DNA of 29,339 bases from NCBI RefSeq assembly GCF_000003605.2, contig NW_003130854.1, positions 2,871,012-2,900,350 on the forward strand, in the 5' to 3' direction. This DNA is from Saccoglossus kowalevskii (lineage: Eukaryota > Hemichordata > Enteropneusta > Harrimaniidae). Every line of letters begins with the position of its first letter. Position 1 is the first letter of the stretch. Below the pieces are notes generated by a model. That model did not search any database. It was not told where the DNA came from and saw only the letters and a program-made list of their open reading frames with translations. Shown here piece by piece: positions 3,532-25,592 of the stretch. Made by a program: the position numbers and the translations under genes.

Positions 3532-3672
3532 GGGGCGGAGGCTACCTCACAGATCGTTTTATGTTACTTAGACGCGTACCACTGTAATGTTGATTAAACT
3601 GCATAAACTTAACTGTAAGACAATTCTAAGCAACCGAATTTATAGGACACTGTTCAGCAGAGTCTCAGCAAC
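3532..3672. repeat. GC-rich dispersed or duplicated segment, copy 1
   Basis: Begins GGGGCGGAGGCTACCTCACA and matches 17060-17252 in blocks: CTATGTTGCTAAG-like, GCACCACTGTA-like, GAGCAACCGAAT-like, and AGCAGAGTCTC-like. The second copy has an additional block in the middle. The two copies lie upstream of gene A exon 4014 and of the gene B signal exon respectively. They could be duplicated 5' flank or a transposon family. Confidence 0.55.
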
Positions 3673-4013
3673 AAGCCAAAGTACAGTTTCTGAGCGTTTT
3701 CGGTCTTTGTTTTTACCGGAGATAGTTGCCAAACGTGAAAATGCCCGAATATTCGCTCTTGAGAATATTACTACTCAAACCCAATACACAAATTTAACTG
3801 ATTGCAACTTCGAAAGCCAGTTATATCAGTCAATACATATACTATATGAGCCGGACTAAAAGCTATCACTGGAAAACATTTGAGTTACGATTTGATCTCA
3901 ACAATTCTATGACAATAATTATAGTGTCATATCAGTTCTGCAAGATGAAAATGTATCGTAGCGTTTCTGACAATGAATAATAAAACTATTTTTTCACTCA
4001 ATTTTGTTGAAAG

Positions 4014-4151
4014 ACCGATATAAGGTTATACAAAAGCAGCGCACATGGTATCAGGCAAGAGACGATTGTGAGTCTAGGAATGCTCATCTAGCAGTGATCC
4101 GTTCTCATCAGGATAATTCAGATGTGAAAGATTTGCTGTCTCAAGATATAG
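4014..4151 (+). CDS. Gene A exon: N-terminal half of C-type lectin domain
   Basis: Phase 1-1 exon of 138 nt. The acceptor follows TTGTTGAAAG and the donor is G|GTAAGC. The translation runs from RYKVIQKQRTWY through ARDDC and AHLAVIRSHQD to LLSQDI. This is the classic CTLD beta1/alpha1/alpha2 region: aromatic W, then ARxxC carrying the first canonical disulfide cysteine, then a LAVIRS strand. Where long-form CTLDs have Cys-Tyr, this exon has Arg-Tyr, so it looks short-form, or the extra N-terminal cysteine pair has been lost. The reading frame stays open past the donor to about 4270, but that stretch is not lectin-like. The domain start must lie in an upstream exon. Confidence 0.87.
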
Positions 4152-7100
4152 GTAAGCTACGAATCAAAAATGCACTGGTACATGCAAATATGAATGAAAA
4201 TTGCAATGTACAAAAGACTAGCAATAACAACTTAACAACCAGCTCATTCTTCTTCTTCTGTCCATCGTAACTTTTTTCGTAAAGCCGTTTGAGAAAACCG
4301 CTGAACGGAATGGTCTGATAATGCTCTATACTGATAGTCCCTAATGTGAACTGCTGCACCCAACTCAGAATTTTGATTGGACAATTGGTTCGGCAGCCAT
4401 ATTGGATTGAAATTAAAACGGTGGCTATTTCACCACTTTCTGAGGGTCGAGGTGATCTGAATTTGTTATGGCATATATTGCAACTCATGAGCAACAGATA
4501 TAAACAATAACAACTTTAGCGGTCTGTTTTCTTTTAAAAAAGACAAAAAACACTTGAAAAGCTTCTTTTTCTGAACCTCCAAGCAAAATGCTCTCATATA
4601 TAATATTTGGCGTCTAGATATGAAGCACATTTAAGTTTGGAAAATTTGTTCACATGGTTTAGCAGCCATTTTGGATTTCTTCTAAACAGGAAGCAGTTTT
4701 TTACTCATGCCACACTTAGTCGATTATCTTCTAGTTTGTTAAACTACATCTCTATATCGAACTCTTTCAGGAAGCTGAAACAGATTTCAGATCATTCACA
4801 TGATTTGGCCGCAATCTTGGATTTTATGCAAAATTAACCAAAAGTTTGGGCATTTGTTTCTTCTGAATGCTCCAATCAACTAAGCAGTTATGTGTGTTAT
4901 ATTGGTCCGATTGGAGTTACAGTTTACTACATCACCTACCAGAAAGTCCGTGGAAATAATAAATTACATTTATTACTCGTAGGCTTGACTACAGATTACA
5001 GCCCCGATCGGAAACTATTAGGGAATATACCCTGTTCACAAAGAACACCTTAGGGTAGCATTCCCTATAGAAAAAAGGCCCCTCCTCAGGGTCACCCCGC
5101 AGGGTGATCATGCATAAGAGGCCTGATCTGACATTCTCACAAACGTTTCCGCTGCACCAACTGGAAGCTTGTGTTGAGGTGCGCGGTTTCCACAGACTTT
5201 CTGGTATGTATGATTAGGTAAACAAACGGGTTTGTACAACACCAAAAAGGAAGGTAAAAAAACTGAGAAATCTAAAGTTACTCCCCAACAAGGAGTCTAG
5301 TCCCAGGATAAAACCACTTAAGCGACTCTTCAGGGAACGGGTGCCTCAAGGGTAGACCCCCCACAATTTAGGGAGGCTTACTAAAGCCGGTCGACAATTT
5401 TAATGCATCGAAACAGTATAATACTAGGGTTCGATAGCACTGAACAAAACCGGTAGTGTCAAGCAAAAGAGGCTAATTTCGGCTGAAGACACTATCGTGC
5501 TAACGCTTTCGTGCATAGGGCCCCTTGGTGGTGCGGGCTGGGTCAGCGAACACAGTCTGACCCGTCACCACTGAACCCAACCTATAGAAACTCTCCTGCA
5601 GCGCTTGGAGGTCTATCATGTAATAGTTAATGAAGACATTCTGAGATCTCCAGAACCCTGCTCGAAGCACCTGCTCCAGCGAGGCTCCAGACATCAAAGC
5701 CAATGAGTTAGTTACACTGTGCACCTTGTGTGCCTTCACTTGGTGGCGTTCCAAACAAACCAATAAAGAAGCAGTTAACTTATATGCTTCCACGACCGTA
5801 TCAACAATCCACAACCGAATGATGATATTCGAAGCAGGGTGGCTCAGTTTGCCCTGCCCATAACAGACAAACATGCGCTTCTCATTTCCCCTAGACACCT
5901 TGGTGCGATCGCAGTACCAGCTCAGAGCTCGAACTGGGCATAGAATTCGCTCCTGACAGTCCTCCTTGCTCACAATGATAGTGAGGCGTGGGATGACGGT
6001 CGGCTCAGGGTCACGCCCTGGGATTCCTGGCAAGAAAGCCCAGCCGAATCTTCAAAATAACTAGCAACAGGACATGCAACCAGTGCCATAATGAAATAAT
6101 AAAACGGAAGATGTAACTAACATAAGAGATCATAACCTCAGTATCATGCATAAACAAATGGCTCATTATATATTCTGAAAACCATATCTCGATAATCAAA
6201 CCAAGTAAATACAAGGAATCAACTGCATACGACATCATGGCACAGGTCATTCAAACTACCCTAATGGCAATCTAGTGACCTCACTATTTATGGAATATAT
6301 GTTTGATAGCTTGGGTCCCTGTGACGCCGCTTGCGGCTTTAATTTGAATAGTTGTTTTCATCTTCCGATTGTGACTAAATGGCTACAAAAAGACTCGGTA
6401 AATTACATATTTATTAATTATATAGGGTTCAAGCTTTTTAAAAACGTGTCTGTATCAAAGATGTGTGACATGTTCATTTATAAAATATAACTTTTCCTGA
6501 AAACAAATAAATTGCGCAATTATGTTTGTGATAAGAAGCTGTTTCCTCGTAGTTCGGTAGTCTGTTAACTTGAATGCGTCTCAGCAGATGTATTCATGCA
6601 CCATGTTTTAAAAAGTTGAGTGCTGAATTCCTAGATTCAGTTTTAGTCGCATTGCCCCAACTTAACTACTACACGTTGAAAAAGTAATCTAGGAAATAGT
6701 TTGACACATTTTAATTTCTCTCAATGTGTCGCATACGACTTATTTACTACTTCCGTGTCACTGAGGATGTTCTAGAATCGTACTGTGTCTGGGTGGAATA
6801 TTCTAGATTTTGTTTAGAAACTGGTTGAATAGGTAATAGAACACTGTAGGAGGCATTAGAAGGTAATGGAACATTCTAGAAATTGGTAGTAAGTTCCAGA
6901 CTCATTATGTATGCTGATGTAATGGTCTATTTATAGACAGTGGGAGTATATATAGGGGAGTTGTTCAGCACTGAGTTCAGATCGGAGATCTTGTTGAATT
7001 GTATTGGAGTTTAAGTATCTAGTTATTGGAGTAGTGGAGTTTTACCGCGCTATTGTACTTGATGTTTGCAGAGTATAATAATACCAGTACCAGTTGAAAC

Positions 7101-10100
7101 CTCATCTGTTGGCTCCGTGTTCGTATTTTATCATCGCCGCCAGGGAAGTCTTTCTGTTACTGTTGCCATTTTGGTATTTGAACCATCACACCTGTACTAT
7201 ACCAATTACGGTAATATTACGTTGCGTGTGACACAATGTCACTTTACAGCTGTGCAAATTTAGTGTTCATCACGCGACACTAATCATCTGCTATTTTTGT
7301 TAAAGATCTCGTAATTTGCAAAACATAAACTACGGCTACGGCTATGTTTTTCAAGCCAGTGGGTTGTGTTGGACCTGATAATGTAATAAATACCGATAAT
7401 GTAACAATTAGCAACCAATAATTTAACAACAACAACAACAACAACAACAAAAACTACGGCTACGGCTATGTTTTTCAAGCCAGTGAGTTGTGTTGGACCT
7501 GATAATGTAATAAATACCGATAATGTAACAATTAGCAACCAATAATTTAACAACAACAACAACAACAAAAAACGATAATGTAACACAAAATAACCGATAA
7601 TGTAATAACATATTTGAAAGTATGTTTAGTGTATAGATATGAGCGGAGAACTGAACTGATTTAGTAAGCGACCAGGTCATTCCCATTTTAAACAAGTCAA
7701 TACGTATTCACGCACAGCTCGTTAGCATGGGCTTAGAGAGAAATTACGAAAACGTGTACTTGCAGTGCTATATGTTCCGAGGACCAAAATACACAGGTAT
7801 ACCAACTTCCGAGGACATACACACCTTCCGAGGACCATTTTCATATTCCTCGGAAAACATAATTTATATTAATAGTTAATTCGATTATTAATACGTTTGC
7901 GTAGCTTATGTTTTGTATCAAGGGATATGGTTCAGTTTATATTAATATTAATATTAATATAATTGTACCATACCTTCCCACGATACTAAACCTAAGCTTT
8001 GCAAATATTTCTATGTTCAGTCACGGGATATTCAAGTTTTCTTTAATTAACTTAATTAAACTTGATTAAAACGCAACCCTATACAGGAACGCATTTATTC
8101 GATTTCAAGCATCCAAAACGCGGTTGCATCCAAATTGATAACCACATGACTCTAAACACCCCCTATGAGAGAACAGTGATTCAGTACATCCACATAGGTT
8201 TCCAGGAAATACATTAAATAAAATTATAAAAGTGATTAAACACCTCCACACCGTGATGAAATGCCTTACAGGCTGTTTTGTTTCATTCATGTTTGACACA
8301 CACATCATAAATATAGTAATACATGTTCATTACCATTGTTCCATAATCAGATCAAAGATGACCGACTGCTTTTTGACCATACTACCATATCCTTAGCGAA
8401 GGAAATTCAGTTTGGATACAAAAAACGCATGAATAGCTACACAAAATAGATAAAAGTTATAACAAAGTGAGCCAAATATACTGTGAAGGGAAGGTGGATG
8501 GGGAAGAAAGATCTGCCTTGTAGCCAAACATTGCATTGGAATGGTTGTACATCTATAGTAGAAAGGTGCTAGCCACACCATTGCTAGATCAAATATTATT
8601 ATTAACAAGTACTGGCGGCCTTAATTCCTCTTGCGCTGGATAATCATATTACACTTCAATAAATCTGTGTGTGAAATTAAGTCTTGTTCGCATTTTATAA
8701 TCTAACAGGTATTTCTGACAGATGAGTACCAAAATGCTTATTGGATTAAAAAAGAACTTTACAGATTTCAACTATAGTCTGGTGGTCTGTTTATTTCCTG
8801 TTACAGACGAGCACCTGTGCCATAGTACTGCGTTTAATTTAATTGATATTCACATGCCTTCGTCGTATTACATGTTAAGTTAGTATACATTAAAAAATAA
8901 ATAGAGTCTGTCCAACTACAACGTTAGAAGTCTTCATTGAAGTATAGGAGCACACGAAGTGGTTAATATAGTGGGTAATAAGAAATAGTAGCTCAACCAG
9001 AACTTGATCTTCAAGATTTTATTTCTACCGACGAAACAACTGGCAAAAATAAATGAAAATAAATCATAACTGAATATACGAATGAATACGTAATAGGGGA
9101 TAAGAAATAAGTGTATATGCAACAAAATACAATGGAATGCAAACCATAATCGAAGGAGAAAGCAATCGGGAAAATAGAGTATTCAGTGTCTATCACTATC
9201 TCACCGAAAAAAGATTGATCCCGGGTCCATATGCAGAAAACAATCCATGGTAAAAAACTTCGCAATCTAACTGGGTTCTTATCCAATCGCAGATGTGAAT
9301 TCACATAGCAGGCGATGAACTGAGCTTTGCTTTTCCCAAGTGTCGCTTTCAAACGAAGTTTTAGAAATAGAAAGAATTCCCACGAAACGATGAATTGTAT
9401 CAATTTATTACCAGTAGTAGCATTTATGGCACTAGTAATTTAGTGATGTCATCAGTTCGTAGGAACCGTTGAGTGAAAATGAATAGCTTGTTTATTATTT
9501 ACCGTAGCGAGCATGAAAGCACCCTAAGGGTGCCCGCCTGCATCGCCGTGGCATCGTAAATGGCAAATGGATATGATACGTAACACGTTCCATATTATCT
9601 CCGTTGTTAGTGTCTTTGAACACAAAGATAGATAGTCAATATTAGCAAGCTGGGCATACAATAATACAATAATTTGTGTAACAGATGTTTATTTTATACT
9701 GATGGACAAAATGAATAATTAGTAGCTAGTAGCAAAAGAAATATGAATTGTTTGCACTCACTTGGACAAAAGAGATGTAAATATTAGGATTACGAGTGGT
9801 GGTGAATACATATTGAATTCAGCTAATCTTTGAAACGTTTACACACATAGATTTAACTTGAGTTGTTTATTTGTGTGAGATTACATTGCCTCTCTTCGGA
9901 TAAGCTGAATTTTAACCAACTTACGTGACATTATATGTTATTTCGACTTCACCATATAAAAGTTTATAGTACATTCCATCAATAAGATGCCGTTTTCATG
10001 TAATTTTTTTCTTGAATGCGTCTGAATACTTCAAATACAATTATTTTTTGGATAATTCCGATACATAATATTTTGTTGCTTATCAGTTGTTTTTGGCTCA

Positions 10101-10378
10101 GTAATTATTCCAAGGTACCTTCGAAAATATTTTATAGGCAATGTGTGGATCGGTGTAAATGATTTATACAATGAAGGAACATACAAGTATGTGACGGGGC
10201 GCGATGCAACGTATACAAATTGGCGTGATGGTGAACCTAGCGATGGTAGTGGCAGAGAAAATTGTGTTGAGATGAGGTAAATATTAATATATAAGATTTT
10301 TATTTTATTGTCTGAAGATAAATGGTTTGATATTATAGTGTTGTTTCAGATTTTGGCATGGAATGCACAGTTGAATAC

Positions 10379-10427
<49 letters not shown>

Positions 10428-13400
10428 GAATAGCGTTATTATTCTTATATTGTTGTTGCAGTTATGAATATGATTTTAAATGGAATGACTGTCCATGCAC
10501 ATTAACAAGGAATTATGTGTGCGAGTATTACCGTGAGTCGTAATTTTAAACTACTTACACTGATAATAATGCAGAAATATCTAGATCATTTTGCTATACA
10601 AAATGAAAAATATTAACAGTTATTACAAAATCTTCATTCACAAGAATTATGTGGATAATAGTTCTGTATATACACGAGCTGGCCAATCTCTCATTTCCAA
10701 ATACAAATACAAGAACACATCCGATGCGTTACCTTAATGTTCAATCTAACAACACAGACATTTTTGAATTAGAGAATATCATTATTGTCGCCCAGGTAGT
10801 ACCGTATGATTGTTAACAATTTGAGTTTCCTGTCATATATATCAGACATTATTCAGTACATTCGTTGAACTAAACCATTATCGCGTTTCGTGACTTTTAT
10901 CTATGTTGTAGAAGTGTACAAATTTCTGGAGGAATTTGTTTTCATTCCCACAGTACTCTGTAATAAATGATATTGTTAGCATTGCTGCCTGTCTAATCTG
11001 AACAAACTATATCATGTGATTGACGATGATGATATCTAGCTGTTTACACTAAGTTGATGAAGCAAGGATACATAATTGTATAACTTGTTTGTTGCAGAAA
11101 ACTATACTCTCATATGATATACACTAATTGTGAGCAATTAGGAGATGGTGTGTATGCTTCGCTAAATAACTGGTTCATAGTGAAAACCTATACTTTCAAT
11201 AAGGGTGCAATTTAAAATGAACGAATTGTGTAACGAAGAAATAATTTAGACTGATGGGCACCAATATAGTTCATTACAATTATATGCATATATAAATAAA
11301 ACAAGGATGCTCACTGAACACATGAACTACTAGGTTCAACAACATTTATGCTTGGTATAGTTATCAACTCCGGCAGTATCAGCCACCAGTGCAATAGTCA
11401 GTACTAAATGCCGCCTTCACCACACGCCTGTTTCACTTATGTGTCCAGACAGTAAATGCACGCATTCATTCTTTAAGCCTTTATCATTGTTTATTTCCAG
11501 CATGTGATACCCAATCTGTGATAAATGCTCAACTGAAATCGTGCACGGATGATATGAATCATGGCAGTTTGTGTATATATACATGTATTCGTGGTTATAC
11601 AGCGGAGTCGTCATTGGTCACAACTTGTGGACTGAACAGACAGTGGAATCCAAGCATAATCAATTGTACAGGTGAGAACCTTAATGTTAATCAATGTAAC
11701 ATAGTAGTGGTTATTTATCACCGTATTTTCTCTTTTCACATGATATATATATATACATTAACCCATGATTGAATGTATACTATGTTATCAGTTGGTAGCT
11801 ATCCAATCATTCAATGCAAGAATTACGATTGATGTTCCACCAACATATTAAACACAATATGATTTGTTCGTTATTTACAGTTATTACGTGTGACATACCA
11901 CCATCTGTGTCAAATACTGAATTGTCATCATGCTCAAATGGTGCAAAGTATGGCAGTCGGTGCACATACACATGCGTTAATGGGTATGAAGCTGTCACAT
12001 CGATGGATACAACATGTGGGAGTCATGGTAAATGGAATGTTACTAGTATTATATGCAACAGTAAGTCTTGTTTATATAACCTTTTTTCACATACAATTTT
12101 GAGATTAATCAATTCACAAACTTTACAGTTTTTAAACTACAAGCTTGTCATTAAACCAATATCTATATAATACACCAGGCTAAATATTCCCACCATAACT
12201 ATAATACTACATTCACCATGTCTTGAATAATGTAACAATGCCCATTGTATGTAATGGTGTAGCTATTGTTCCAATTAAGTGGCTTAAAGTGCTATTGTTA
12301 TTGTTGTCTTTACTTCTTCTGCAACGGATTATTTCGTCACCCAAATCTCAGAAACAAATAATCAGACTCATATAAAATTTTCTAGGCCTTGACTTGACTT
12401 TCTTTTCAAAAAGTTTCAAATATTTGTGATTGTTGTGAACCGCGTTATCCAATATGGCGGCGCTCGCCTAGAATGAAACGTTTAATTTATTTTTTCCGTA
12501 TAAGCAAACATGGAACACTTTAATAAATTACGTATCCGTAAGCAGAATGATTTTTCCAATTATTCAAATTAATATCCGTTCTTGGACTTCTATCTCTACT
12601 TCGCCTCTAGTCATAATTAAATAAAACGTAATTTTTCTGTATTTTAAATAAAGGTTACGCACGGAAAGTGGGCATATGACTTCTATGAAGAACCTGGCGC
12701 TAATTAACGTGTTTATAGCAAAATAGTAATCTTCTCCATTGACATTCATACATTACTTAGTGTCTTTCAATCCACGAAACGCATTTTGGCTAAGATAATG
12801 CATCAGATGTTCTACTCAAGGACTGTGCTGAACTAATTTCTTTATCCACTATCTTAAGCAAGTCAATTGAAAGTGGAATGTTTCCTGGAATGTTGAAGCG
12901 TGAAAACGTTGGGATAAAGTTGGATGTCATATATTACCGATATTTTCACTCTTTCGCAAATACTTGATATTACGTCTTGATATTTTGGTACTTTGTGTTC
13001 CATATATCATTTTTCTTTGTGAATTGCAATTATTGTAACTGTTCAATGACTGAACTTTCATCTCGTGTAGCCTTTTGACAGGTACACAGTTAATGTCTAC
13101 AAATAAGGATATCAGTTTTGTGTGTGGAATTACTAGCAGGGAGCTGACAGTATTGCCTGTGTACTAACTGGTCTTGTGACCTTATTACTTTCTAATCCTA
13201 TTTTTATAAAAGTTATTATACACACACATTTACAAACAGTAGGCTATTATGTACATGACATGTATTGACCTCATTATTATTAGTGTAATATATTGCTGAC
13301 CGGTGTGTAATTTATATTACTCTTGTTAATGGTTTATGCTGATTGTATTATTAAAATTAGTATGATTTGACATATTATGGTTGTGTGCTTTTGTTTGACC

Positions 13401-15717
13401 TTTAGGAATATTGGCGGCGAGGTTCGCGGGAGACTATTTAACACTATTTGTTGGCCGTGTGACCGTATTAATTATCCAAATACCTAATTCTCAGATATGT
13501 TATAGATGTACATTTGGTGGCATATTTTGAATAATGTTGGTCATGAATGATGGGCATTACTAGTTCATATAGATCTGGTATTTGTACACATTTACTACTA
13601 ACTAGGTATTGTGCACATAAATAAAAAAGTATTTGACATTATTGTTATTTCACAGCACGAGTTTATCCTGTGTGTACCAAGATCCAATTAATTAATTAAC
13701 CCTATTACATTTATTATTAGGGATAACATGTGATGTACCGCCATCAGGGACAAATATTGGATCGCCATTTTGTACAAATGGCGTGAACTATGGTAGCCAA
13801 TGTCAATATACATGTGATACTAGACATGAAGCTGTGACACCATTGGTTACATCATGTCAGTCAAATGGAGAATGGAATGTAACTAGTATCATATGCGACG
13901 GTATGTACAATGGTCTATGTTCATTAAGGAAATACTAAAAAGCAACAATAAAATTCTTATTCAAAGGTATTTGTTGTTAGTTCATCCATGTTTATGGACT
14001 AGTATTCATGATCGTATCAAAAATGTCGACACCTACCTCCACATTGAACTCCTTAACGTGCCTCCAGGCGTATGCTATAATGTTTTTGTGGCCAAATATA
14101 ATCCCGTAATATCAAAACAATGAAACAACATAGGATACATATTGTTTGATTGGTAATTGCAGTTACCCATTGTGATATTCCGCCACCTGGGTCAAATACT
14201 GAATGGCCATCTTGCTCAGATGGTGTGAATTATGGTAGCCAATGTAATTATACATGTATTAGAGGGTATGAAGCTGTGACATCGATGGTTACAACGTGTG
14301 AGAGTAGAGGTCAATGGAATCATGACAACATTATATGCAAAAGTAAGTAGATGTTATTTTGCAAAACTACGTTAATAACTTCACCTTCCCCGTTTTAAAT
14401 GTTTACATTATAATGACGATATTACCGACTATGCTTCATAACTAATGTTTGTGTCCATAATTTGCATGCATTTGCATTTTCGTGTCTTTTAACCTAACTG
14501 GTTAATCTTATTGCATATTATGAGTTTCTTTTTGCAGGAATAGTTACTTCAACATTGCACCAGAGTGAATATAGTTCACCGATTACAAATATACCACATT
14601 TAGAAGAAAGTCCTGGCACAGTATCAATTCCAGGTTATTTTTACTTTTTTCCGACACTCTAATACAATAGTTTGATATCGTAAGTGCTTATTAATAAACC
14701 CATAGTGTCACGCAGGGAAGGAATCGCACGTGAGGGCGCCTTTCTTTCAACGGATTGTATTTTGTCTCATTATCGATTGCGTTGTGTTACGAGTAACATC
14801 CTGTCAACAGCTATGTAGTTCATTGTTTGAACATCTATCCCAGATCTGCTATGCCCAGCTTTACTGGCGTTTTTTAAATCATTGATGACTTCTGAAATGG
14901 ACTTGGCCAATGGACCCCAGAGAACGATATAAATACTTTTCAATTTAATCCTGGTTAGAATTATCTATGCTGCTAATTAGATCAGAATTGGCGACTGTCT
15001 TTAAATTCAGCTGGCATACTTGCTTGAAAAAAATCCCCAGGTGAACATAAACGCCCAATGTGTGAAATACTTTTCATTTTGAAATCGAGTCTCGTATGAA
15101 TCACAACTCTGGTCCACAGCTAATGGATCAACCAATTGTGTGACAAATAATGTGATAATTTAATCAAATAAATTTATTAATCATTACCATTATAAATTAG
15201 AGTTAGTATAACCAAACTTGTACTGTTTATATTCTGATTCCATTTATTTTTGTCCCAGTTTCTTATTCATTTCTGGAGTCTATGACGTTCAATTTTGTTT
15301 TGATCACAGGCATGTTTGCTGGCGTGGCTGTGATATGTCTGTGCTTGGGATTTGGCGTGAGTCTGATAGTTGGTTACCTTAAAAATCGGTAAGCTTTATT
15401 TTATTCGTCTCCTGTATGTTAGATAATAATATATTATAGGTGCATATTATAACGCAGATATGTTATGCTTACATTTTATCTTCAAATTATGTACTGTTAA
15501 GCTTTGTGAATTAATCATTACTTACAGAAATTGCAAGAAAACACACTCCAGAGCCGTCGATGGGAATAATGCTGCTGCTGATGAAAATAAATATAAACCA
15601 CTCAACTTACATGATATTGTGCCACCTATATATGAGACGATAGACAAAGAACCGACCTATCAGAATGATACCCCGGTATGCTCAGCGCCCTCATATGAAA
15701 ATATGATAACAACGTGA
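4014..15717 (+). CDS. Gene A: C-type lectin / 4x sushi (CCP) / transmembrane receptor with ITAM-like tail (5' partial, 10 exons)
   Basis: Joined exons: 4014-4151, 10138-10276, 10462-10532, 11501-11671, 11881-12060, 13721-13900, 14163-14342, 14538-14633, 15310-15388, 15528-15717. With one base from a missing upstream exon they total 1425 nt, or 474 residues plus TGA, with no internal stop. Domain order is CTLD, four CCPs, Ser/Thr/Pro-rich stalk, one membrane helix and a tail of about 65 residues. All introns are GT-AG. Most junctions are phase 1; only the two inside the CTLD and membrane/tail units (10276/10462 and 15388/15528) are phase 2. The layout recalls selectins but lacks an EGF domain. 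The expected product is a type I plasma-membrane lectin receptor signalling through tail tyrosines; this role is inferred. The signal peptide and first CTLD strand were not found in 1-4013. No gene name is recognised. Confidence 0.88.
4152..5499. other. First visible intron of gene A, proximal part, with 'CCATCTTGGATT' repeats
   Basis: Non-coding. Diverged copies of a unit of roughly 100-150 bp occur here, each with a CACATGGTTTNGCNGCCATTTTGGATT-like core in shorter form: around 4382-4415, 4640-4680 and 4793-4835. Similar cores occur in a gene B intron at 20740-21070. From 5030 to 5500 the sequence is GC-richer with several CCTNAGGG-type short inverted motifs; it may be the terminal or untranslated part of the recombinase element at 5500-6033. 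Confidence 0.45.
5500..6033 (-). mobile_element. DIRS-like tyrosine recombinase fragment (truncated retroelement)
   Basis: A 177-residue open frame on the minus strand inside the first intron of gene A. It contains CPVRALSWYCDRTK and, near residues 115-145, HKVHSVTNSLAL then GASLEQVLRAGFWRS then FINYYMIDLQ. That order (H-x-x-R box, GxxLExVLRAGFWRS, F-x-x-x-Y nucleophile) is typical of tyrosine recombinases of DIRS-type retroelements. The Arg of H-x-x-R is His here, a change explained by a single G-to-A transition, so it is probably inactive. The N-terminal catalytic Arg region is missing; homology ends at about 6040. No reverse transcriptase is visible nearby. Confidence 0.72.
6034..6769. other. 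Intronic sequence between recombinase relic and heat-shock cluster
   Basis: AT-rich, no exon or known element recognised. Small open frames (6011-6250 minus, 6275-6490 plus) show no family features. Confidence 0.35.
6770..6979 (+). promoter_or_regulatory. Heat-shock-element cluster upstream of a TATA box and initiator
   Basis: Three matches to the GAAnnTTC arrangement recognised by HSF: TTCTAGAA at 6770-6777, GAATATTCTAGAT at 6796-6808, and a perfect three-unit GAACATTCTAGAA at 6869-6881. A fourth partial site (TTCCAGAC) starts at 6894. A TATA box (TATATATAGG, 6947-6956) follows, and about 30 bases on an initiator-like TTCAGATC (A at 6979). This is a complete core-promoter layout facing right inside the gene A intron. 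No gene was recognised downstream. It may be the U3/R part of a solo LTR or a promoter of a non-coding or alternative transcript. Confidence 0.5.
7326..7570. repeat. Tandem duplication, 124-bp unit, ending in AAC microsatellite
   Basis: Two near-identical units (7328-7451 and 7452-7568), each starting ACTACGGCTACGGCTATG and ending TTTAACAACAACAAC. The AAC runs vary in length between copies, so the minus-strand poly-Val frames over this region are repeat artefacts. The internal GATAATGTAATAAATACCG is repeated again in degenerate form at 7570-7605. Confidence 0.85.
7775..7855. repeat. Cluster of TTCCGAGGACC motifs
   Basis: TTCCGAGGACCA occurs at 7775 and 7826 and TTCCGAGGACA at 7807. A palindromic variant, TTCCTCGGAA, lies at 7846-7855. 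Four related motifs occur in about 80 bases of otherwise AT-rich intron. No known site is assigned. Confidence 0.6.
7860..10137. other. Distal part of the large gene A intron
   Basis: AT-rich and without recognisable exons. A perfect 15-bp palindrome, GCACCCTAAGGGTGC, lies at 9519-9533. Runs of ATTAAT at 7920-7960 are low complexity. The open frames at 8105-8608 and 8934-9403 (minus) show only AT-driven hydrophobic composition. Confidence 0.4.
10138..10276 (+). CDS. Gene A exon: central C-type lectin domain with EPS sugar-site motif
   Basis: 139-nt exon entered in phase 1 and left in phase 2. Acceptor TTTTATAG, donor AG|GTAAAT. The translation shows NVWIGVND (the WIG core strand), then YKYVTGRDATYTNW, then DGEPSDGSGREN, then CVEM with canonical cysteine 2. 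The EPS triplet is where mannose-type lectins have EPN and galactose-type lectins have QPD. Glu and Pro are therefore kept, and Asn is changed to Ser. It joins the previous exon as a Gly codon and the next as a Ser codon, giving an uninterrupted CTLD. Confidence 0.9.
10381..10427. repeat. (TTA)n microsatellite
   Basis: About 15 uninterrupted TTA units in the short intron between the second and third lectin exons of gene A, some 35 bases before the next acceptor. Length variation here could affect the polypyrimidine/branch region. Confidence 0.95.
10462..10532 (+). CDS. Gene A exon: C-terminal C-type lectin domain with WND
   Basis: 71-nt exon entered in phase 2 and left in phase 1. Acceptor TTGTTGTTGCAG, donor C|GTGAGT. 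The translation SYEYDFKWNDCPC...NYVCEYY contains the WND calcium-site triad, canonical cysteine 3 (NDC) and cysteine 4 (YVCE). One additional cysteine follows directly (CPC). A related but diverged copy lies at 18847-18901 in gene B, including the same GTGAGTCGTAATTTTAAACT intron start. Confidence 0.9.
11501..11671 (+). CDS. Gene A exon: sushi/CCP domain 1 (six cysteines)
   Basis: One-exon domain of 171 nt, phase 1-1. Acceptor TTATTTCCAG, donor G|GTGAGA. The pattern is CDTQ...KSC...SLCIYTCIRGY...TTCG..RQWNP..INC. The four canonical CCP cysteines are all present, with the GY and W landmarks, plus an additional Cys pair (KSC and SLC) placed as in selectin short consensus repeats. NCT at the end is a possible N-glycosylation sequon. 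This domain has no counterpart in gene B, where the locus is deleted at about 20533. Confidence 0.93.
11881..12060 (+). CDS. Gene A exon: sushi/CCP domain 2 (six cysteines)
   Basis: 180-nt phase 1-1 exon. Acceptor TTATTTACAG, donor A|GTAAGT. The translation has ITCDIPPSVSNTE, then SSCSNGAKYGSRC, TYTCVNGYEAV, TTCGSHGKWNVT and SIIC. Six cysteines, the GY turn and the G-x-W motif identify a CCP of selectin type. NVT is a likely glycosylation sequon. It is also missing from gene B because of the same deletion that removed CCP1. Confidence 0.93.
12061..13720. other. Intron between CCP2 and CCP3 of gene A
   Basis: No exon recognised. Two parts align to gene B: 12235-12360 with 20535-20665, and 13070-13185 with 21770-21895. 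A part between them (about 12380-13060) has no match in gene B, where a different sequence stands. Small GC-rich patches (ATATGGCGGCGC at about 12454) look like inserted repeat pieces. Confidence 0.5.
13721..13900 (+). CDS. Gene A exon: sushi/CCP domain 3 (six cysteines)
   Basis: 180-nt phase 1-1 exon. Acceptor TTATTATTAG, donor G|GTATGT. The translation shows ITCDVPPSGTN, PFCTNGVNYGSQC, QYTCDTRHEAV, TSCQSNGEWNVT and SIIC. The usual GY is replaced by RH after the YTC cysteine. It is the orthologous partner of 22811-22990 in gene B, differing by about 11 of 180 bases by hand alignment. The preceding intron is also closely alike, so the pair is recent or has been homogenised. Confidence 0.92.
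14163..14342 (+). CDS. Gene A exon: sushi/CCP domain 4 (six cysteines)
   Basis: 180-nt phase 1-1 exon. Acceptor GGTAATTGCAG, donor A|GTAAGT. The translation has HCDIPPPGSNTEW, PSCSDGVNYGSQC, NYTCIRGYEAV, TTCESRGQWNHD and IIC. All six cysteines and the GY and W landmarks are intact. NYT is a glycosylation sequon. Gene B contains two damaged versions of this exon, at 23962 and 24243. Confidence 0.93.
14538..14633 (+). CDS. Gene A exon: Ser/Thr/Pro-rich membrane-proximal stalk
   Basis: 96-nt phase 1-1 exon. Acceptor TTTTTGCAG, donor CAG|GTTATT. It encodes about 32 residues, RIVTSTLHQSEYSSP then ITNIPHLEESPGTVSIP. There is no cysteine, many Ser/Thr/Pro, and no known domain, so it fits an O-glycosylated stalk between the last CCP and the membrane helix. 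No clear counterpart was found in gene B. Support comes from the matching phase and splice sites and from the open frame, not from homology. Confidence 0.68.
14634..15309. other. Intron between stalk and transmembrane exons of gene A
   Basis: No exon. The last 140 bases (from about 15170) align closely to the matching position in gene B (25325-25425), sharing TTTATAAATTAGAG, GTATAACCAA and TTTGTCCCAGTTT. The earlier part (14700-15100) is unmatched and GC-richer, and may be an insertion. Confidence 0.5.
15310..15388 (+). CDS. Gene A exon: transmembrane helix
   Basis: 79-nt exon entered in phase 1 and left in phase 2. Acceptor TTTTGATCACAG, donor CG|GTAAGC. It encodes GMFAGVAVICLCLGFGVSL followed by IVGYLKNR: about 20 hydrophobic residues with small-residue (Gly/Ala) spacing, then a basic stop-transfer. 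No charged residue lies inside the helix, so there is no sign that it needs a partner adaptor chain. The homologous exon in gene B (25514-25592) is the same length and keeps the YLKNR end exactly. Confidence 0.9.
15528..15717 (+). CDS. Gene A terminal exon: cytoplasmic tail with ITAM-like and YxN/YxxM motifs
   Basis: 190 nt including the TGA stop. Acceptor ATTACTTACAG. After a basic start (RNCKKTHSR) the tail carries four tyrosines in recognisable contexts: YKPL, then nine residues (NLHDIVPPI), then YETI; then YQND; then YENM five residues from the C-terminus (ENMITT end). The first pair fits YxxL/I-x(n)-YxxL/I; the spacing of nine is slightly wider than the common six to eight. In known receptors YxN binds Grb2-type SH2 domains and YxxM binds PI3K p85; YENM satisfies both, as does CD28 YMNM. 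Function here is inferred. Gene B keeps the first two motifs in weakened form and lacks the last two. Confidence 0.88.
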
Positions 15718-16039
15718 ATTGGAAAATTCAGTAACACTATGGTATCATTTATAAGCAAAGCAATTCACCATATTAATTATTAGTGTGATTCTCATCAAGC
15801 AATATTATAATACCACATACTATTAGCTCTGTCTGCATTCAGGCATATTTATTATTCTTGTTTGCGATACAAATGTATTTTAACATGTCTTTGTGATGTA
15901 AGTTTGACATTTATTTAAATCATTACATTTTTACCCCACAAACATTAATATATTTACTGTTCATAACCAAACTTATTTTTTTATAGCCAAACAACCCTAA
16001 ACTTTCGATTTACTAGTAAGAGACGAACTAGAACTGTGA

Positions 16040-16045
16040 AATAAA
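16040..16045 (+). terminator. Candidate polyadenylation signal, gene A
   Basis: AATAAA lies about 320 bases after the gene A stop codon, in AT-rich sequence. Further AATAAA matches follow at about 16145 and 16151. The first is the simplest choice. No transcript evidence is available, and such hexamers are common by chance in AT-rich DNA. Confidence 0.35.
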
Positions 16046-16659
16046 TATTATTTCTTCGAGTGTATTTCAGCAAAAAGACCAGATATGTTCATGTCATCTC
16101 TTCATGTAATGACAGTCAATTACTTATTCACTTGCACTCTCATAATAAAAATAAAAATAATTAACATGACAACCATTAAGCTATTTAATAACTGCACGAT
16201 GTTTGATGTGCTTGGTTGAATTTTAGGCGTAAGGAATTAGTGCGTCATGCACCCAGGAATCATCCTAGCCACGCTACACTCCTCCCCGTTTGCGTATCAT
16301 AACGCACTTATTGTGAGTAATTGGGTAATAAACCAACTTATCATATACATAACCAAGTTTTCACCTAGGTGTGACGTCACGCTTTGGTGATTTGCGTTTT
16401 ATATATTCCATATCACTTATCAGTACATCAGTGTGATATGTTACCAGACTACACACGAGATTTCACCAATATAAATAATTTGGACACAATCAAGAGTACA
16501 AGATGGTGTGTTACTGGTAATAGGTATTTTATTAAACCTTAATTATCTAAAACGTTTAAATACGAACCATTGCGTTTTAGACAAACAAATATTTAGATTA
16601 TATTATCATGAGAACTTGAAAATCTACAAATAATCGACTAGTGAATCGGTCTGAAGGGA

Positions 16660-18407: not shown

Positions 18408-18480
18408 ATGATGTTTCTTACTTGTTGGTCAGCAGTGGTTTTGGCATTGATGTGCAGCTTTGAGAATGTCAACGCGACAG
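18408..18480 (+). CDS. Gene B exon 1: signal peptide
   Basis: ATG ATG start at 18408/18411. The exon encodes MMFLTCWSAVVLALMCS then FENVNAT, a short typical signal peptide with a hydrophobic core and a likely cleavage near the Ser/Phe or Ala/Thr. It ends ACAG|GTGAGT in phase 1, the phase every extracellular exon of this family uses. Position and phase tie it to gene B; the equivalent exon of gene A was not found. A CACGTG E-box lies about 140 bases upstream. The start codon is inferred from the signal peptide alone. Confidence 0.66.
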
Positions 18481-18811
18481 GTGAGTTAAATTTTTATAAA
18501 TGATGTGAACAATGTTTGAGAAAAAAAAAGTGGACATTGTTAAATGGAATCGAATGTAGTAGTTATTGATTAGTTGTAAACTCCACTAACATCATGTTTT
18601 CAATAAAAGAACCCTTTCCAAGTAAACGGTCATTTCTTACAACATAGAAACAAGCAAACGCGAGTAGTAAAAACCTACAAAGCACGCTTAACGAAAACAG
18701 TTCACTGTCGAAAATAAACACCATGATTAGAACAATGGGAAAGTATAAGTAAATACTGCAGTTTATAATGACACCTAATGTTATTAAACTGTCAACTTGT
18801 AAGTATTGCAG

Positions 18812-18901
18812 AGAACACATACAATGTAATTTATATATTCATTCAATGGAATGACGGTTCATGCACAGAGCAAAATTGGGGTTATGTGTGCGAGTATTAC
18901 A
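18812..18901 (+). CDS. Gene B: remnant of the third lectin exon, still open and phase-compatible
   Basis: The segment from about 18847 matches the gene A lectin exon at 10462-10532 (QWNDGSC...GYVCEYY, then GTGAGTCGTAATTTTAAACT). The original acceptor seems lost, since the AG at the aligned position is missing. An upstream AG (GTAAGTATTGCAG, ending 18811) would give a 90-nt phase 1-1 exon, in frame with both the signal peptide and the WND/YVCE segment. No other part of the CTLD is present, so it cannot fold as a lectin. It may be a decaying exon or a short spacer. Use of the new acceptor is a hypothesis. Confidence 0.45.
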
Positions 18902-19140
18902 GTGAGTCGTAATTTTAAACTATTTACCTTAATAATAATATCGATAATTTTGCAATACAAATTGCAGAATATAAATAGTTATTACAAAATCCTCATTCAC
19001 AAGAATTGTGTATATAATATTTGTCTATATACATGAGCTCGCCAATCTCAAATACTAGAACAAATACAAAGCTTTTAAAAATATGATTTTCTGTCATATA
19101 TCAGTGATTATTTTGTAGATTCATTGGACTAAACCATTCC

Positions 19141-19692
19141 ATCGTTCGAATCGCACAGTTTCGCTAAAGCCGACCGTGTTAAGAAAAGCTGTATTTCACT
19201 GCACCTAAATTGAGTCATTTTATTGGGCGCGCCAAGGAGCTAGCGCCACCAATCAAAATTGCTGTATCTTAAATGTGAAGATCGAGGAGCTCATCACAGA
19301 TTAAAACAATGGTGGCGTGTATGTTTTGCTGATTCACCTGGAGTCAAGAACAGAAGATCTTTATTCGTTGACACGTTTTCAAAATGTCTTATTCCAACTG
19401 TGGAAATTATTTGTGAGCAAGTGAATGAGCAATGAGAGATGTTTAAATATTTGTGTAAACTGTGTTTTAGTAAACTGACAAAACTGTTAACATATCAACT
19501 TGTCCGATTCGGTATTTTCCTAGCGACTGTGTTTGCAACAAACACGTCATTTACCACAGATACAGCACTAAAAGCTTTCTTTTGACGATCAGTAAGTTCG
19601 TTCAGAGAAAAAGCTAGTAACACCGCCATTTTCGTCTCTATTGTAATTTTCTTTCTCTGAGTCAATATCTAAATGCAATAAATATATTATCT
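19141..19692. mobile_element. Insertion of about 550 bp in gene B intron
   Basis: Gene A reads continuously across this point (AAACCATTATCGCGTTTCGTGA at about 10874), while gene B is interrupted between AAACCATTCC and CTCGTTTTCTGAC. The insert is GC-richer, contains GGGCGCGCC, and on the minus strand carries a short open frame (19495-19629) starting MAVLLAFSLNELTDRQKKAF. No terminal repeats were recognised and the family is unknown. Presence/absence between the paralogues is the evidence. Confidence 0.5.
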
Positions 19693-20739
19693 CGTTTTCT
19701 GACTTTTATTCATGCTGTTGGAGTGTAACCAAGTCCACATATTTCTGGAGTCAATGTATTTTGTTTTCATTATTATACATTGTAATGATTGATATTGTTA
19801 GTATGACTACCTGTCCAATCTGACAAATGGTATCATGCAATTGAGGACATCGGAGTGGGAGAGTGTATGTGAGCGTGTGCATAGTGTGGGTGCTTGTCTT
19901 ATTTTTTATGAGTGACAATTAATTGTTCACTCGCATTTGTCTTGTAACCAACTAGAACATGTCATTGGTGGTAACTATAAGCGATTGGCAGACGGTGTAT
20001 TGGAGTACATAATTGTGTAATTGGTCAGTTTTGCAAAGGTGTATTTCAATATGGCTTATTATATTCAATGATATCTAGTTGTTTACTCTTAGTTGTTGAA
20101 ATACATTATACTCTCATATGCTAGACGCTAACTGCACAGTTTTAGGATGGTGTGTTAGCTTCTCTAAATAACTGGTTCTTAACGAAAATTTAAGGGTGCA
20201 TGTGTGAAGCAAATTTTAGTTGTTTACCCTGATCGTCTTTTGTAAACAAGATACATTTTGTGACGAGTGGCAATAATTGTATTGTGTGTCGGAACATTTT
20301 TGTATAATTAGTGCATTTTTAAAAACTTAATTGCAATGTTACTGTATGTCTTACTTTTGACACTTATATCATTGTCACGAGGTCACAGGTTTAGGTCAAA
20401 TATGAACACAAAACAACAGCAATATTCAATTTTACCATCTCATGTACAGGTTAACCAAATTAAAATTACACACATGTAACAAAGGCATAATTTAGATTGA
20501 TGCATGCATTCATTCTTTAAGCATTTATCATTGTGCCAATGTCCATTGTATATAATGGTGTAGCTATTGTTCCACTTATGTGGTTTAAAATCCTATTGTT
20601 ATTGTTGTCTTTACTTCTTCTGCTACGTATTATTTCGTCATCCAGATCTCAGAAACGAAAAATCAGACTCCTATAAACCGTTGTCAATTTTCTATGCTTT
20701 GACTTGATCGTGTACAGTGGCAGATTCCCTTCACTACCT

Positions 20740-21070
20740 TGTCGACCATCTTGAAAACACTTTTATTTAAAATACCGAACTACGCCAACGCCAGAGAGAA
20801 ACAAATATTCGAATCAGTCACATGATTTTGCCACCATCTGGATTTCATGAGTGCTTAACCATTCGACTTGAAATTGTGCATATAGTATCTATGCTCAAAG
20901 CTTCTTATGAGAAGAATAGAAACTAATTGCCCAGGTACATGGTTTTGCCCCTATCTTGGATTGTGCATTTGTGAACACCGCTGAACGTTAATTTCAGGAA
21001 TTGGTGTGCGTATTGCCCCTGATTTGATCTGATCGCTCCACGAATTCTGCAGCCATTTTGGCTTGAAGTG
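20740..21070. repeat. 'CATCTTGGATT' repeat units in gene B intron
   Basis: Cores CACATGATTTTGCCACCATC (about 20820), TACATGGTTTTGCCCCTATC (about 20937) and GCAGCCATTTTGGCTTG (about 21049) recur roughly every 110 bases, with CTTCT-rich spacers. The same family occurs at 4380-4840 in gene A, at a non-homologous intron position. Confidence 0.5.
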
Positions 21071-22810
21071 ATATCAAAGGTTCCAAGCCCTGTCTGAGGT
21101 CCTAGGCATTTTGATGTTTTGTTGTCGCATTATTGATATATAGCTTTTTCAAAAAAAAAAAAAAAATTTAATACCTGAACTGGATTTTAAATTCTTTAAT
21201 TTTTTAACAACACTATGTAGATCGTCGTTCCGTATATACATACATACATACATCTGCCTTCTTGATACAAACATATTCTATAGAGCATTAAAATATATTA
21301 CTTGCTCCAATGTCATCATATTAATCTATGCTCGCGCGTTATGACACATAGTTGAGATAAACGTCTAGTTGTATTCCGGGATTATAAAAGATTTGTTACA
21401 AATAACACTTTTATGTTTGAACGTACACAGAAGACAGTGGCAAAAACAGAACTGGGTCGAACCACCCTCTTCGAGCACTGTGCAAAGCAGTGGCGGGGGT
21501 ACATTTCAGCGCTCGTATGTACAAAGAAAAATTAATAAAAAAATGACATTGACAGGCAATTCGGATTGTACTTAAGTACAACGTTAATGTATGAAATGTA
21601 TATTTCGAGCAATGTAAATACATTGTGATTACATTGGCATTTAAATATTTAACCAAGTGAAAACATAACAAGTTACCAATTGCAAGATTCCAACTAATGG
21701 CCATCAACATTCATCAACATACTTGTGTCTAATGCCGTTTAAATATTAAATTAAAGTAGTGTAAACTATTCTTGACAGATACACAGTTGATGTGTACAAA
21801 TAAGAATATCCGTTTTGTGTGTGAAATTGTTTGATGCTAGCAGGGTGCTCACAATATTGTCTGTGTACCAACTGGTCATGTGACCTCATTACTTGCAAAT
21901 TTTTATAAATGTAATTATAAATAGTAGGCTATTATGTACATGACATGTATTTGACCTCACTAATATTTACTGACCGTGTGACCGAATTAATTATGCACAT
22001 ACTAATTTTCAGATATTTTATAGATGTACATTTGGTGGCAGACTTGGAATAATCGTGGTCATGAATGATAGGCATATCATATAGTTTATATAGATCTGAT
22101 ATTTGGTATACTGCAAACATGCCTTTAATATTAAAATAACGCTTAGCAGAGACAAGATCACTGGAAACGGTTAACATGTCCACAGCAACGTTGTTCAACA
22201 GCCTGTCTGAATTTAAAATTGTTGATAAAACATATTTATCACCGACATACACTGTATGTCATGTAAATTGTTTTACAAAATTGCATAAAATTAATCTAAA
22301 CATCTTTAGAAACCCTAACCACACTAATTTGGTTTAAATTTGGTTTGTAGCATGCAAAGGCGAGTGCACAAACCTTCAAGTAGGTTACATAGTTCGGCCT
22401 TTATCTTCGATTTAAACAGACTCAGAAGTATCCTATTTCACACATTTCTTGTATCATCCGTGATCTGTTGTTATTGCATCATTGGCATATGTACAAACAA
22501 CACTAAACTGAAAGTTGAATTATATTTAACGGTGTAATAAATTCAACGATTTATCATGTTGTGACACTTTAATCAGTATTTGTATATATAAGTGTTTGAC
22601 GTAGTCCCTGTCTTGGAATGCAGAAACATTAGTATACATTATCTGGGTATGACACATTCCATATTTTAGACATAAGTTCGAAACAATCTCTTAATGTTCT
22701 CACATTAACTCTTATCAATGTAAAGTTAGTTTTATTATTTCACAGCATGAGTTTATCCTGTTTGTACCAAGATCCAATTAATAAATTAACTCTATTACAT
22801 TTATTATTAG

Positions 22811-22990
22811 GGATCACATGTGATGTACCGCCATCAGGAACAAATACTGGATCGCCATTTTGTACAAATGGCGTGAACTATGGTAGCCAATGTCAATATA
22901 CATGTGATACTGGACATGAAGCTGTGACACCATTGGTTACATCATGTCAGTCAAATGGCGAATGGAATATATCGAGTATCACATGTAACG
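22811..22990 (+). CDS. Gene B exon: intact sushi/CCP domain, GC splice donor
   Basis: 180 nt, phase 1-1, homologous to gene A CCP3. Acceptor TTATTATTAG is identical. The translation has ITCDVPPSGTN, PFCTNGVNYGSQC, QYTCDTGHEAV, TSCQSNGEWNIS and SITC; all six cysteines are kept. The donor reads AACG|GCATGT where gene A reads GACG|GTATGT. The GT has become GC, which spliceosomes use rarely and usually only in a strong surrounding context, which this is not. This is the best preserved ectodomain unit of gene B. Confidence 0.82.
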
Positions 22991-23775
22991 GCATGTACAA
23001 AGGTTTATGTTTATTAGGGAAATACTAAGAAAGACAATAATTCTTATTCAAAGGTATTCGTTGTCAGTTCATCCATATTGTTGACTTTATTCTTGATAAT
23101 ATATGTGAAGTTGTCTTCTTATACATCGTCCGCCTGCACAGTGTTGTTCCGTTTGGACATTCCTCCCTCTGCAACTCCGTGCGGTAACTCCATTCATAAC
23201 CGCGTATGTCACGTGGTTGCGCGATAGAAAGTTTACCGACCAATAGAAAGCTTTGTTACAATGACTGCCAAAGAGCGCTTTGAGCTTTGCATTTCTGATG
23301 TTTTCGGCTTCATTTCTGCCGATATATGTTGCAGTCTTGCAGTGATATCATGAGCATAAAGGTATAACACCTACTCTTCTACTCAACAGTGGTGACAACC
23401 CTATTACCACTCTCGATGGTCGCAAAGCCGGTAAAGCATAATAACATAATGATTAACCATCTCCAGTGCAACTAATAAACGAACACATCAGACTTGGAAA
23501 CTAAGCTTGAATAGCTTTTGTCTAAATATCTGTGAGTTGCCCGGCGACATTCAATCTATATGGTAAAGCAGTGCGCGTCTTTATTAGCAACGTGAAGCGT
23601 CTTGTCATTTAGCTCCACCCGAGGATAGCTTGGCCAAGCGTGAAATACTTCAAGGTGATAGTGGAGTGCTTCGCTGGAACATTCACCTTAAAAATTAAGA
23701 TGCTTCTTATCCATTGGGATCTTGATTGAGTAGTTCGACCCAAGCCTTTACAATAATATGTATGTTTATTTCCAG
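22991..23775. other. Gene B intron with an insert of about 650 bp
   Basis: The first 110 bases align to the gene A intron after CCP3. From about 23120 to 23760 there is unmatched, GC-richer sequence with an open frame of only 30 codons (23261-23353). No element ends were recognised. Confidence 0.4.
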
Positions 23776-23842
23776 TTGTCACATGTAATATACCACAACA
23801 TGTAACTCACGCTAAACTATAACAGTCAGTGCGAATACATAG
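23776..23842 (+). pseudogene. Gene B: relic CCP exon with no partner in gene A
   Basis: After a good acceptor (TTATTTCCAG), the first bases give VTCNIPQHVTH, matching the start of the CCP exons. A later stretch (CTAAACTATAACAGTCAGTG) resembles the bases encoding VNYGSQCQYTC, but in a shifted frame with a stop and with the middle missing. The remainder of the domain is absent. Gene A has only intron between CCP3 and CCP4 here, so an extra CCP was gained in gene B and lost, or lost from gene A. Confidence 0.6.
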
Positions 23843-23961
23843 GTATAGTATCAAATACGTTAACACCTGCATTCACATTGAACTTAAAGTGTCATCTGAC
23901 GTATGTTATATTGGTTTTTCATGCCAAATATAATCCTGTGATATCAAACAATTACTTGTAG

Positions 23962-24140
23962 TTACCAATTGTGATATTCCGCCACCTGGGTCAAATACTG
24001 AATGGCCATCTTGCTCAGATGGTGTGAATTATGGTAGCCAATGTAATTATACATGTATTAGAGGGTATGAACTGTGACATCGATGATTACAACGTGTGAG
24101 AGTAGAGGTCAATGGAATCTTAAGGACATTCTATGCAAAA
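23962..24140 (+). pseudogene. Gene B: CCP4-like exon broken by a one-base deletion
   Basis: Nearly identical to gene A CCP4 (14163-14342) up to RGYE. Gene A then reads GAAGCTGTGAC, while this copy reads GAACTGTGAC. The missing base puts TGA in frame at once (GAA CTG TGA). The exon is 179 nt instead of 180, with the CCP tail and donor (AAAA|GTAAAT) still recognisable downstream. Including it in a transcript would truncate the protein outside the membrane. Confidence 0.85.
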
Positions 24141-24242
24141 GTAAATAGATGTTATATTGCAAACTTGCGTTAATAAGTTCACCTTTCTCTTCAAAAACAA
24201 TGAATCAACATATGATAAGTATTGTTTGATTGTTACTTGCAG

Positions 24243-24358
24243 TTACCAATTGTGATATTCTGCCACATGGATCAAATACTGAATGGCCATCTTGCTCAGA
24301 TGGTGTGAATTATGGTAGCCAATGTAATTATAAATGTATGATTACAACGTGTGAGAGG
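24243..24358 (+). pseudogene. Gene B: second CCP4-like copy, internally deleted and truncated
   Basis: Starts 281 bases after the previous CCP4-like exon, with the same ACTTGCAG acceptor and the same ITNCDI-type beginning. It lacks the nine codons that encode IRGYEAVTS in gene A CCP4; the deletion is in frame. After ACGTGTGAGAG the homology stops abruptly at a LINE fragment on the opposite strand. The last cysteine, the tryptophan and the donor are gone, so it cannot encode a CCP. Confidence 0.8.
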
Positions 24359-24630
24359 GGCAAAACCATACAAAGATTTATACACTAGTAAAAGTAATTT
24401 GAAATTGATTCTTTGTACAACTGGTAACCAATGAAGTTTAATAAAAATGTCTGTAATGTGGTCATATTTTCGAGCACGAGTGACAAGGCGGGCTGCTGCA
24501 TTTTGTACACGAATAAGAGGTTTTATCTTAGTTACAGGGAGACCAGACAATAATGAATTACAGCTGTCTAAGCGAGAAGATATGAAAGCATGTACCAACT
24601 TTTCAGTATCAGATTGGGATAATGATAATG
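24358..24630 (-). mobile_element. LINE reverse-transcriptase C-terminal fragment (CR1/L2/Jockey-like)
   Basis: The minus-strand translation shows LSQSDTEKLVHAFISSRLDS, CNSLLSGLP, RVQNAAARLVTRARKYDHIT, LHWLPVVQRINFKLLLLVYK and SLYGFAPL. This is the well-known segment after the reverse transcriptase palm in CR1/L2/Jockey-like LINEs. It stops sharply at the damaged CCP exon of gene B. The element's own 3' end is missing on that side, so this is an internal piece left by rearrangement, not a fresh 5'-truncated insertion. The piece itself is open but far too short to be active. Confidence 0.82.
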
Positions 24631-25513: not shown

Positions 25514-25592
25514 GCATGTTTGCTGGTATGGCTGTGATGTGTCTGTGTTTGGGACTTGGCGCAGGCCTGGTAGTCGGTTACCTTAAAAATCG
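25514..25592 (+). CDS. Gene B exon: transmembrane helix
   Basis: 79 nt, same phases as the gene A exon. Acceptor TTTTGTTTACAG, donor CG|GTAAGC. It encodes GMFAGMAVMCLCLGLGAGL then VVGYLKNR. Substitutions relative to gene A are conservative (Val/Ile/Phe to Met/Leu/Ala), and length and stop-transfer are unchanged, which argues for constraint during or after the duplication. Confidence 0.82.

Follow-up and report, generated by a model that had tools for sequence, protein, structure and literature searches.

The window analyzed here, a 29,339-nucleotide stretch of the Saccoglossus kowalevskii genome with 35.4% G+C, holds on its forward strand a ten-exon gene model (herein gene 1; 4014 through 15717) followed by a collinear second copy (herein copy 2). 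The exons of gene 1, with the evidence on which each was placed, are as follows.

4014-4151 (+): first of the ten exons; splice sites and frame, Lectin_C match; phase 1 assumed
10138-10276 (+): middle of the C-type lectin domain (WIGVND, EPS motif); splice sites, frame, Lectin_C match
10462-10532 (+): end of the C-type lectin domain (WND motif); splice sites, frame, Lectin_C match
11501-11671 (+): CCP/Sushi domain 1; frame, Pfam Sushi
11881-12060 (+): CCP/Sushi domain 2; frame, Pfam Sushi
13721-13900 (+): CCP/Sushi domain 3; frame, Pfam Sushi
14163-14342 (+): CCP/Sushi domain 4; frame, Pfam Sushi
14538-14633 (+): juxtamembrane stalk; splice sites and frame
15310-15388 (+): membrane helix, free of charged residues; frame, hydropathy
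15528-15717 (+): cytoplasmic tail and stop codon, with YKPL-x9-YETI at 15592-15642, then YQND and YENM; frame, motif scan

Joined by predicted splicing, the ten exons yield one chain of 474 residues that is open up to the stop codon. All nine internal introns are GT-AG, and exon phases are consistent throughout. The four CCP exons, of 171, 180, 180, and 180 bases, are in phase 1 at both ends; CCP exons in phase 1 on both sides are the pattern of modules spread by exon shuffling. The stalk exon has a donor (GTTATT) that looks weak, and the frame is also kept if this exon is skipped. At the 5′ end, the base completing the split first codon of exon 4014-4151 is an assumed one; the acceptor at 4014 looks weak as well, and no upstream partner was identified for it. 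A scan of 1 through 4010 (ATG start, 46-199 bases, phase 1 donor with at least 4/6 consensus bases, hydrophobic start) yielded no convincing start or signal-peptide exon within these limits of length, donor, and hydrophobicity; the sole forward match, 1255-1330, compares with two on the reverse-strand control and was rejected as noise. Alignment of 1 through 4013 to 16601 through 18840 yields five matches, all of them short; those at 495-560 and 3532-3644 are the best. As these matches miss the signal exon of copy 2, the equivalent first exon of gene 1 may sit beyond the window.

The earlier note had described a C-type lectin domain, four CCPs, one membrane helix, and a YKPL-x9-YETI tail in a single open chain, and the predicted ten-exon frame, Pfam, and hydropathy all agree with that description. 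Pfam Lectin_C matches the joined chain (E = 3e-21), spanning positions 2-106 of the 107-position model; the C-type lectin domain signature is present, with cysteines at RDDC, ENC, NDC, and YVC, which we take to be the four core cysteines of the fold. Pfam Sushi matches four stretches (E = 4.7e-29; 101 bits against a cut-off of 20.7). Beyond Lectin_C and Sushi, Pfam up to E = 1 returned just two DUF matches, both below cut-off; with no EGF family found in the joined chain at that limit, gene 1 as joined falls outside the definition of a selectin. In the lectin site WND is present and EPS replaces EPN. The combination of EPN or QPD with WND is regarded as the mark of calcium-dependent sugar-binding lectins (in part from an excerpt of PMC9954269); judging by its motifs, the EPS/WND site of gene 1 may possibly bind sugar in a calcium-dependent manner.

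Comparison of the whole chain with the PDB places complement receptors 1 and 2 in the leading rows, followed by receptors with several lectin domains, DEC-205 and the mannose receptor among them (best 60 of 184 matched sequences). For the lectin part alone, the leading rows among the matches listed (best 60 of 156) are DEC-205, the IgY receptor, the mannose receptor, and the PLA2 receptor, and the best single-domain lectin row listed is mosquito mosGCTL-1, at 74 bits. Because the ranks of multi-lectin receptors sum several lectin domains, they carry little weight as to function; at the level of sequence, the PDB matches are domain-level resemblance, not orthology. A search for homologs in viral contigs, a set that may lack records from the genome of the window or a very near one, gave one pattern match, unconfirmed by tblastn.

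The joined chain has a single hydrophobic run (approximately residues 379-411), every 19-residue window elsewhere having a mean Kyte-Doolittle value of 1.6 or less. The predicted membrane helix within it comprises 23 residues with a mean Kyte-Doolittle value of 2.3 and zero charged residues. Since a K or R in the membrane mediates pairing of a receptor with an adaptor such as DAP12, this helix offers no obvious K/R pairing, which speaks against coupling to a DAP12-like adaptor and fits signaling in cis. The 63-residue tail carries four tyrosines, in YKPL, YETI, YQND, and YENM, of which the first two form the pair YKPL-NLHDIVPPI-YETI with a spacing of 9. The ITAM consensus, as given in an excerpt of PMC10008955, is YxxL/I-x6-8-YxxL/I. 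Both units of this consensus are present in gene 1, at a gap of 9 rather than 6-8. A looser ITAM rule allows a spacing of 6-12, and YKPL-x9-YETI conforms to this rule only.

Pairs at a spacing of 6-12 arise in 0.85% of 200,000 shuffled tails and in 0.68% of 200,000 random 63-mers. A six-frame control over the window's open stretches of at least 30 residues found 18 motif pairs in 24,384 residues (0.047 per 63 residues), a count that includes the tail pair and four overlapping pairs in 7533-7622. In an AT-rich window like this one, such a pair is no rarity by chance; the domains are beyond chance. The pair is suggestive mainly because it is located in the predicted cytoplasmic tail. Of the features of a hemITAM, an acidic run precedes YxxL in both copies (DENKYKPL in gene 1, DENNYATL in copy 2). 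In the classical hemITAM a glycine follows the acidic run; this glycine is absent here.

Copy 2 lies at approximately 18408-25832, and alignable sequence extends to 27982. The following parts of it can be placed.

18408-18480 (+): signal-peptide-like first exon, with a phase 1 donor
18826-18900 (+): remnant of the last lectin exon
22811-22990 (+): CCP3, open; 169/180 bases identical to gene 1; donor GC, not GT
23962-24140 (+): CCP4, broken by a 1-base deletion
24243-24357 (+): second CCP4, truncated
25514-25592 (+): membrane exon
25706-25832 (+): shorter tail with YATL-x9-YETA, lacking YQND and YENM

Aligned to gene 1, copy 2 shows nothing that matches the first or second lectin exon. CCP1 and CCP2 have no alignable counterpart either: in gene 1 coordinates, the alignment skips from 11490 to 12236. 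Its tail terminates in DENNYATLNLHDIMTNVYETAQK. The earlier note had made its proposal depend on the conservation of the tail tyrosines in orthologs; in the tandem copy, which is decayed, the outcome is divided. Both tyrosines of the pair persist there, as does the first YxxL, but YETI has become YETA and the third and fourth tyrosines are missing. With its frameshift and missing exons, copy 2 is a poor witness for or against motif conservation. Since its remaining exons are phase 1, they could in principle, were the GC donor used, be spliced as signal peptide-CCP3-membrane-tail, giving a receptor that has one CCP and a shortened tail.

Within the tail, 10 of the 13 residues of the block DENxYxxLNLHDI are common to both copies, against 15/28 in the remaining tail, a difference that is not significant (p = 0.19). 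The dN/dS ratios between copies are 0.33 for CCP3 (p = 0.13), 0.34 for the membrane exon (p = 0.12), and 0.44 for the tail (p = 0.06), none of them significant singly. When the three are pooled, there are more silent than replacement changes per site (Fisher p = 0.004; p = 0.008 with the first partial CCP4 comparison added and p = 0.017 with both). The pooled excess of silent changes indicates some constraint, on at least one branch, across the exons for CCP3, membrane helix, and tail.

The CCP4 exons at 14163-14342 and 23962-24140 are identical at 172/179 bases, with zero silent changes in the 22.3 sites of the 5′ part, for which the chance is 0.007 at 20% divergence. The intron immediately upstream of CCP4 is 80% identical between copies over its alignable portion (93/116, with 37 gap columns), and dS in the tail is 0.58. 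Such closeness of the CCP4 exons suggests that the CCP4 unit underwent gene conversion or was duplicated locally at a later time.

Other features of the window include an approximately 580-base segment flanked by inverted repeats of ∼115 bases that are 88% alike (1304-1418 and 1772-1885); by its sequence, the segment 1304-1885 resembles a small inverted-repeat transposon. A 124-base unit at 7322-7571 is present as a tandem duplicate of ∼98% identity with an AAC run at its end, and 28179-29028 comprises a 210-base unit repeated in tandem about four times, with roughly 83% similarity between the copies. Two open stretches on the reverse strand are presumably of retroelement type, 5500-6051 (−) resembling, as we take it, a tyrosine-recombinase retroelement and 24296-24658 (−) the end of a LINE reverse transcriptase. 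The former drew one Pfam match, at E = 0.29 and below cut-off, and the latter none. The window contains no RNA family at gathering score and no tRNA gene.

The likeliest reading of gene 1, to which we assign a probability of about one half, is that it would encode a cis-signaling lectin receptor whose domains are combined in a new way. The product would be a type I surface receptor, with the C-type lectin domain at its tip binding a glycan or protein ligand, the four CCPs acting as a spacer or a second binding face, and the single uncharged helix spanning the membrane. On clustering by ligand, Src-type kinases would phosphorylate the tail tyrosines, and the pair formed by DENKYKPL and YETI would dock a tandem-SH2 kinase of the Syk or Shark type, either within one tail or, in hemITAM fashion, across two. 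By the usual motif rules, sites of the YQND type provide Grb2-type docking and those of the YENM type PI3K-type docking; YQND and YENM may add both to the output of the receptor. The domain order, open frame, uncharged helix, and motif positions can be read directly from the DNA; expression, ligand, phosphorylation, and kinase we infer.

The cis-signaling reading is favored by the domain order and frame, the uncharged helix, and the presence of four tyrosines in 63 residues; by the retention between copies of the block DENxYxxLNLHDI and of both motif tyrosines, together with the pooled constraint; and by the precedents, in the excerpted sources, of oyster CgCLec-TM1 and CgCLec-HTM with Syk and of Draper with Shark. 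The ITAM part of it is weakened by the spacing of 9, by YETA and the two lost tyrosines in copy 2, by the 18 pairs in six frames, and by a tail block whose conservation does not significantly exceed that of the remaining tail. The proposal in the earlier note of a single-chain activating ITAM receptor thus stands as far as a lectin-CCP membrane receptor with tyrosine motifs is concerned, while activation and the recruitment of tandem-SH2 kinases are no more than plausible, given the wide spacing, YETA, and the frequency of chance pairs.

The same tail can be read differently. YxxPhi is a sorting signal recognized by the clathrin adaptor AP-2, and three of the tail motifs (YKPL, YETI, and YENM) match it; gene 1 could then be an endocytic or adhesive lectin receptor, engaged in the uptake of glycosylated ligands or in cell adhesion without kinase signaling, which we regard as possible at well under even odds. 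Copy 2 keeps the first motif as YxxPhi (YATL) but loses the ITAM pair, as such a function would allow, and the receptors in the leading PDB rows for the lectin part, among the matches listed, are multi-lectin receptors known as endocytic (DEC-205, the IgY receptor, the mannose receptor, and the PLA2 receptor). These rows are, however, inflated by summed lectin domains; outside this group, the best row listed with a single stretch is mosGCTL-1 (74 bits). The architecture is also like that of TcCTL15/furrowed, described as bacteria-binding and of the adhesion type (excerpt of PMC9954269), yet four tyrosines, YQND among them, exceed the needs of a sorting signal. If gene 1 encodes an endocytic lectin only, it would be an ordinary member of the large invertebrate lectin repertoires.

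A further alternative keeps kinase signaling and dispenses with the pair. In hemITAM lectins two receptor chains share one kinase, and in gene 1 the first motif, DENxYxxL, may alone count; DEN-Y-xx-L is common to both copies whereas YETI is not, and the oyster transmembrane hemITAM lectins are described in excerpts as binding Syk (PMC13027682, PMC12842671). The missing glycine and the YETI tyrosine, likewise kept in copy 2, argue the other way, and we consider this arrangement unlikely. Still less probable, by a wide measure, is that gene 1 does not work at all, as an unexpressed or partial locus next to a pseudogene or one whose transcripts leave out the lectin or tail exons. The lack of a convincing start or signal-peptide exon in the scan of 1 through 4010, the weak look of the first acceptor and the stalk donor, and the decay of the neighboring copy point in that direction; 474 open residues in ten exons of consistent phase, set against the frameshift and missing exons of copy 2, and the pooled excess of silent changes per site point away from it. 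A more elaborate proposal, which we hold doubtful, is that of a lineage-specific tandem receptor family with a lectin-CCP ectodomain and a one-chain compound tail (a widely spaced ITAM with Grb2-like and PI3K-like tyrosines), in which the CCP exons would be kept alike by gene conversion while the tails diverge towards different outputs; such a tail would be akin to an antigen receptor fused with its co-receptor.

The cis-signaling lectin receptor proposed for gene 1 can be compared with several known systems, as described in excerpts of the cited sources. Two transmembrane C-type lectins of the oyster, CgCLec-TM1 and CgCLec-HTM, each carry a hemITAM and are reported to bind Syk by means of it (PMC13027682; CgCLec-HTM also PMC12842671); like gene 1 they are single chains with their own tyrosine motif, but their excerpted descriptions give no CCPs, and the motif is a hemITAM rather than a pair. 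A second oyster protein, CgCLec-CCP, is a C-type lectin with a CCP domain, linked to complement activation (PMC12842671); it shares the lectin and CCP with gene 1, whereas neither a membrane helix nor a signaling tail is mentioned in the excerpt. TcCTL15 of Tribolium, a homolog of Drosophila furrowed, has a lectin domain, CCPs, and one membrane helix (PMC9954269) and, like gene 1, no EGF among its listed domains; it differs in its eleven CCPs and its F5/8C domain, and its excerpted description does not mention an ITAM. Vertebrate selectins have the lectin domain, CCP stalk, and single helix (PMC9954269), but also an EGF-like domain, and their tail is short. Among 90 CCP-rich "P-selectins" in bivalves, lectin or EGF domains occur as well in 3 from one clam and in 15 from a second (PMC9484242).

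In the fester co-receptors (FcoRs) of Botryllus, Ig and sushi domains are coupled to ITIM, hemITAM, or YxxI/L/V motifs (PMC12065747); the FcoRs so have a sushi ectodomain, one membrane helix, and cytoplasmic tyrosine motifs in common with gene 1, with Ig domains in place of the lectin domain. The hemocyte membrane glycoprotein of Halocynthia, which has two ITAMs and is tied to phagocytosis and aggregation (PMC5465252), resembles the proposed form of gene 1, in a comparison by tail alone, as a surface protein of invertebrate immunocytes that itself carries ITAMs; it differs in having two. Draper/MEGF10 carries an ITAM in cis that acts through a Src-family kinase and then Shark or Syk (PMC8092387); Draper is a single-pass receptor like gene 1, but has an EMI domain, EGF-like NIM repeats, and NPxY. 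TULA phosphatases and invertebrate Syk-like kinases are the topic of PMC10253181.

Given the oyster, ascidian, Botryllus, Draper, and TcCTL15/furrowed precedents, neither the architecture nor the signaling principle is new. The suggestion in the earlier note of an undescribed recognition system is not supported by this comparison, as invertebrate receptors with an ITAM or hemITAM in cis, C-type lectins among them, and the lectin-CCP-membrane architecture are already in print. No CTLD-CCP receptor with an ITAM was found in the open-licence full-text literature, among the matches listed; with each part known, the union of a lectin-CCP ectodomain and a tyrosine-motif tail in one chain looks, from sequence, like a new combination. 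If the tail signals, gene 1 would unite in one chain recognition by a lectin, a stalk of complement-like type, and an output of the ITAM type. It would then form a bridge between the oyster hemITAM lectins, the insect furrowed-type proteins, and the sushi-hemITAM co-receptors of tunicates, and would be relevant to how ITAM signaling came together in the time before DAP12 and other separate adaptors.
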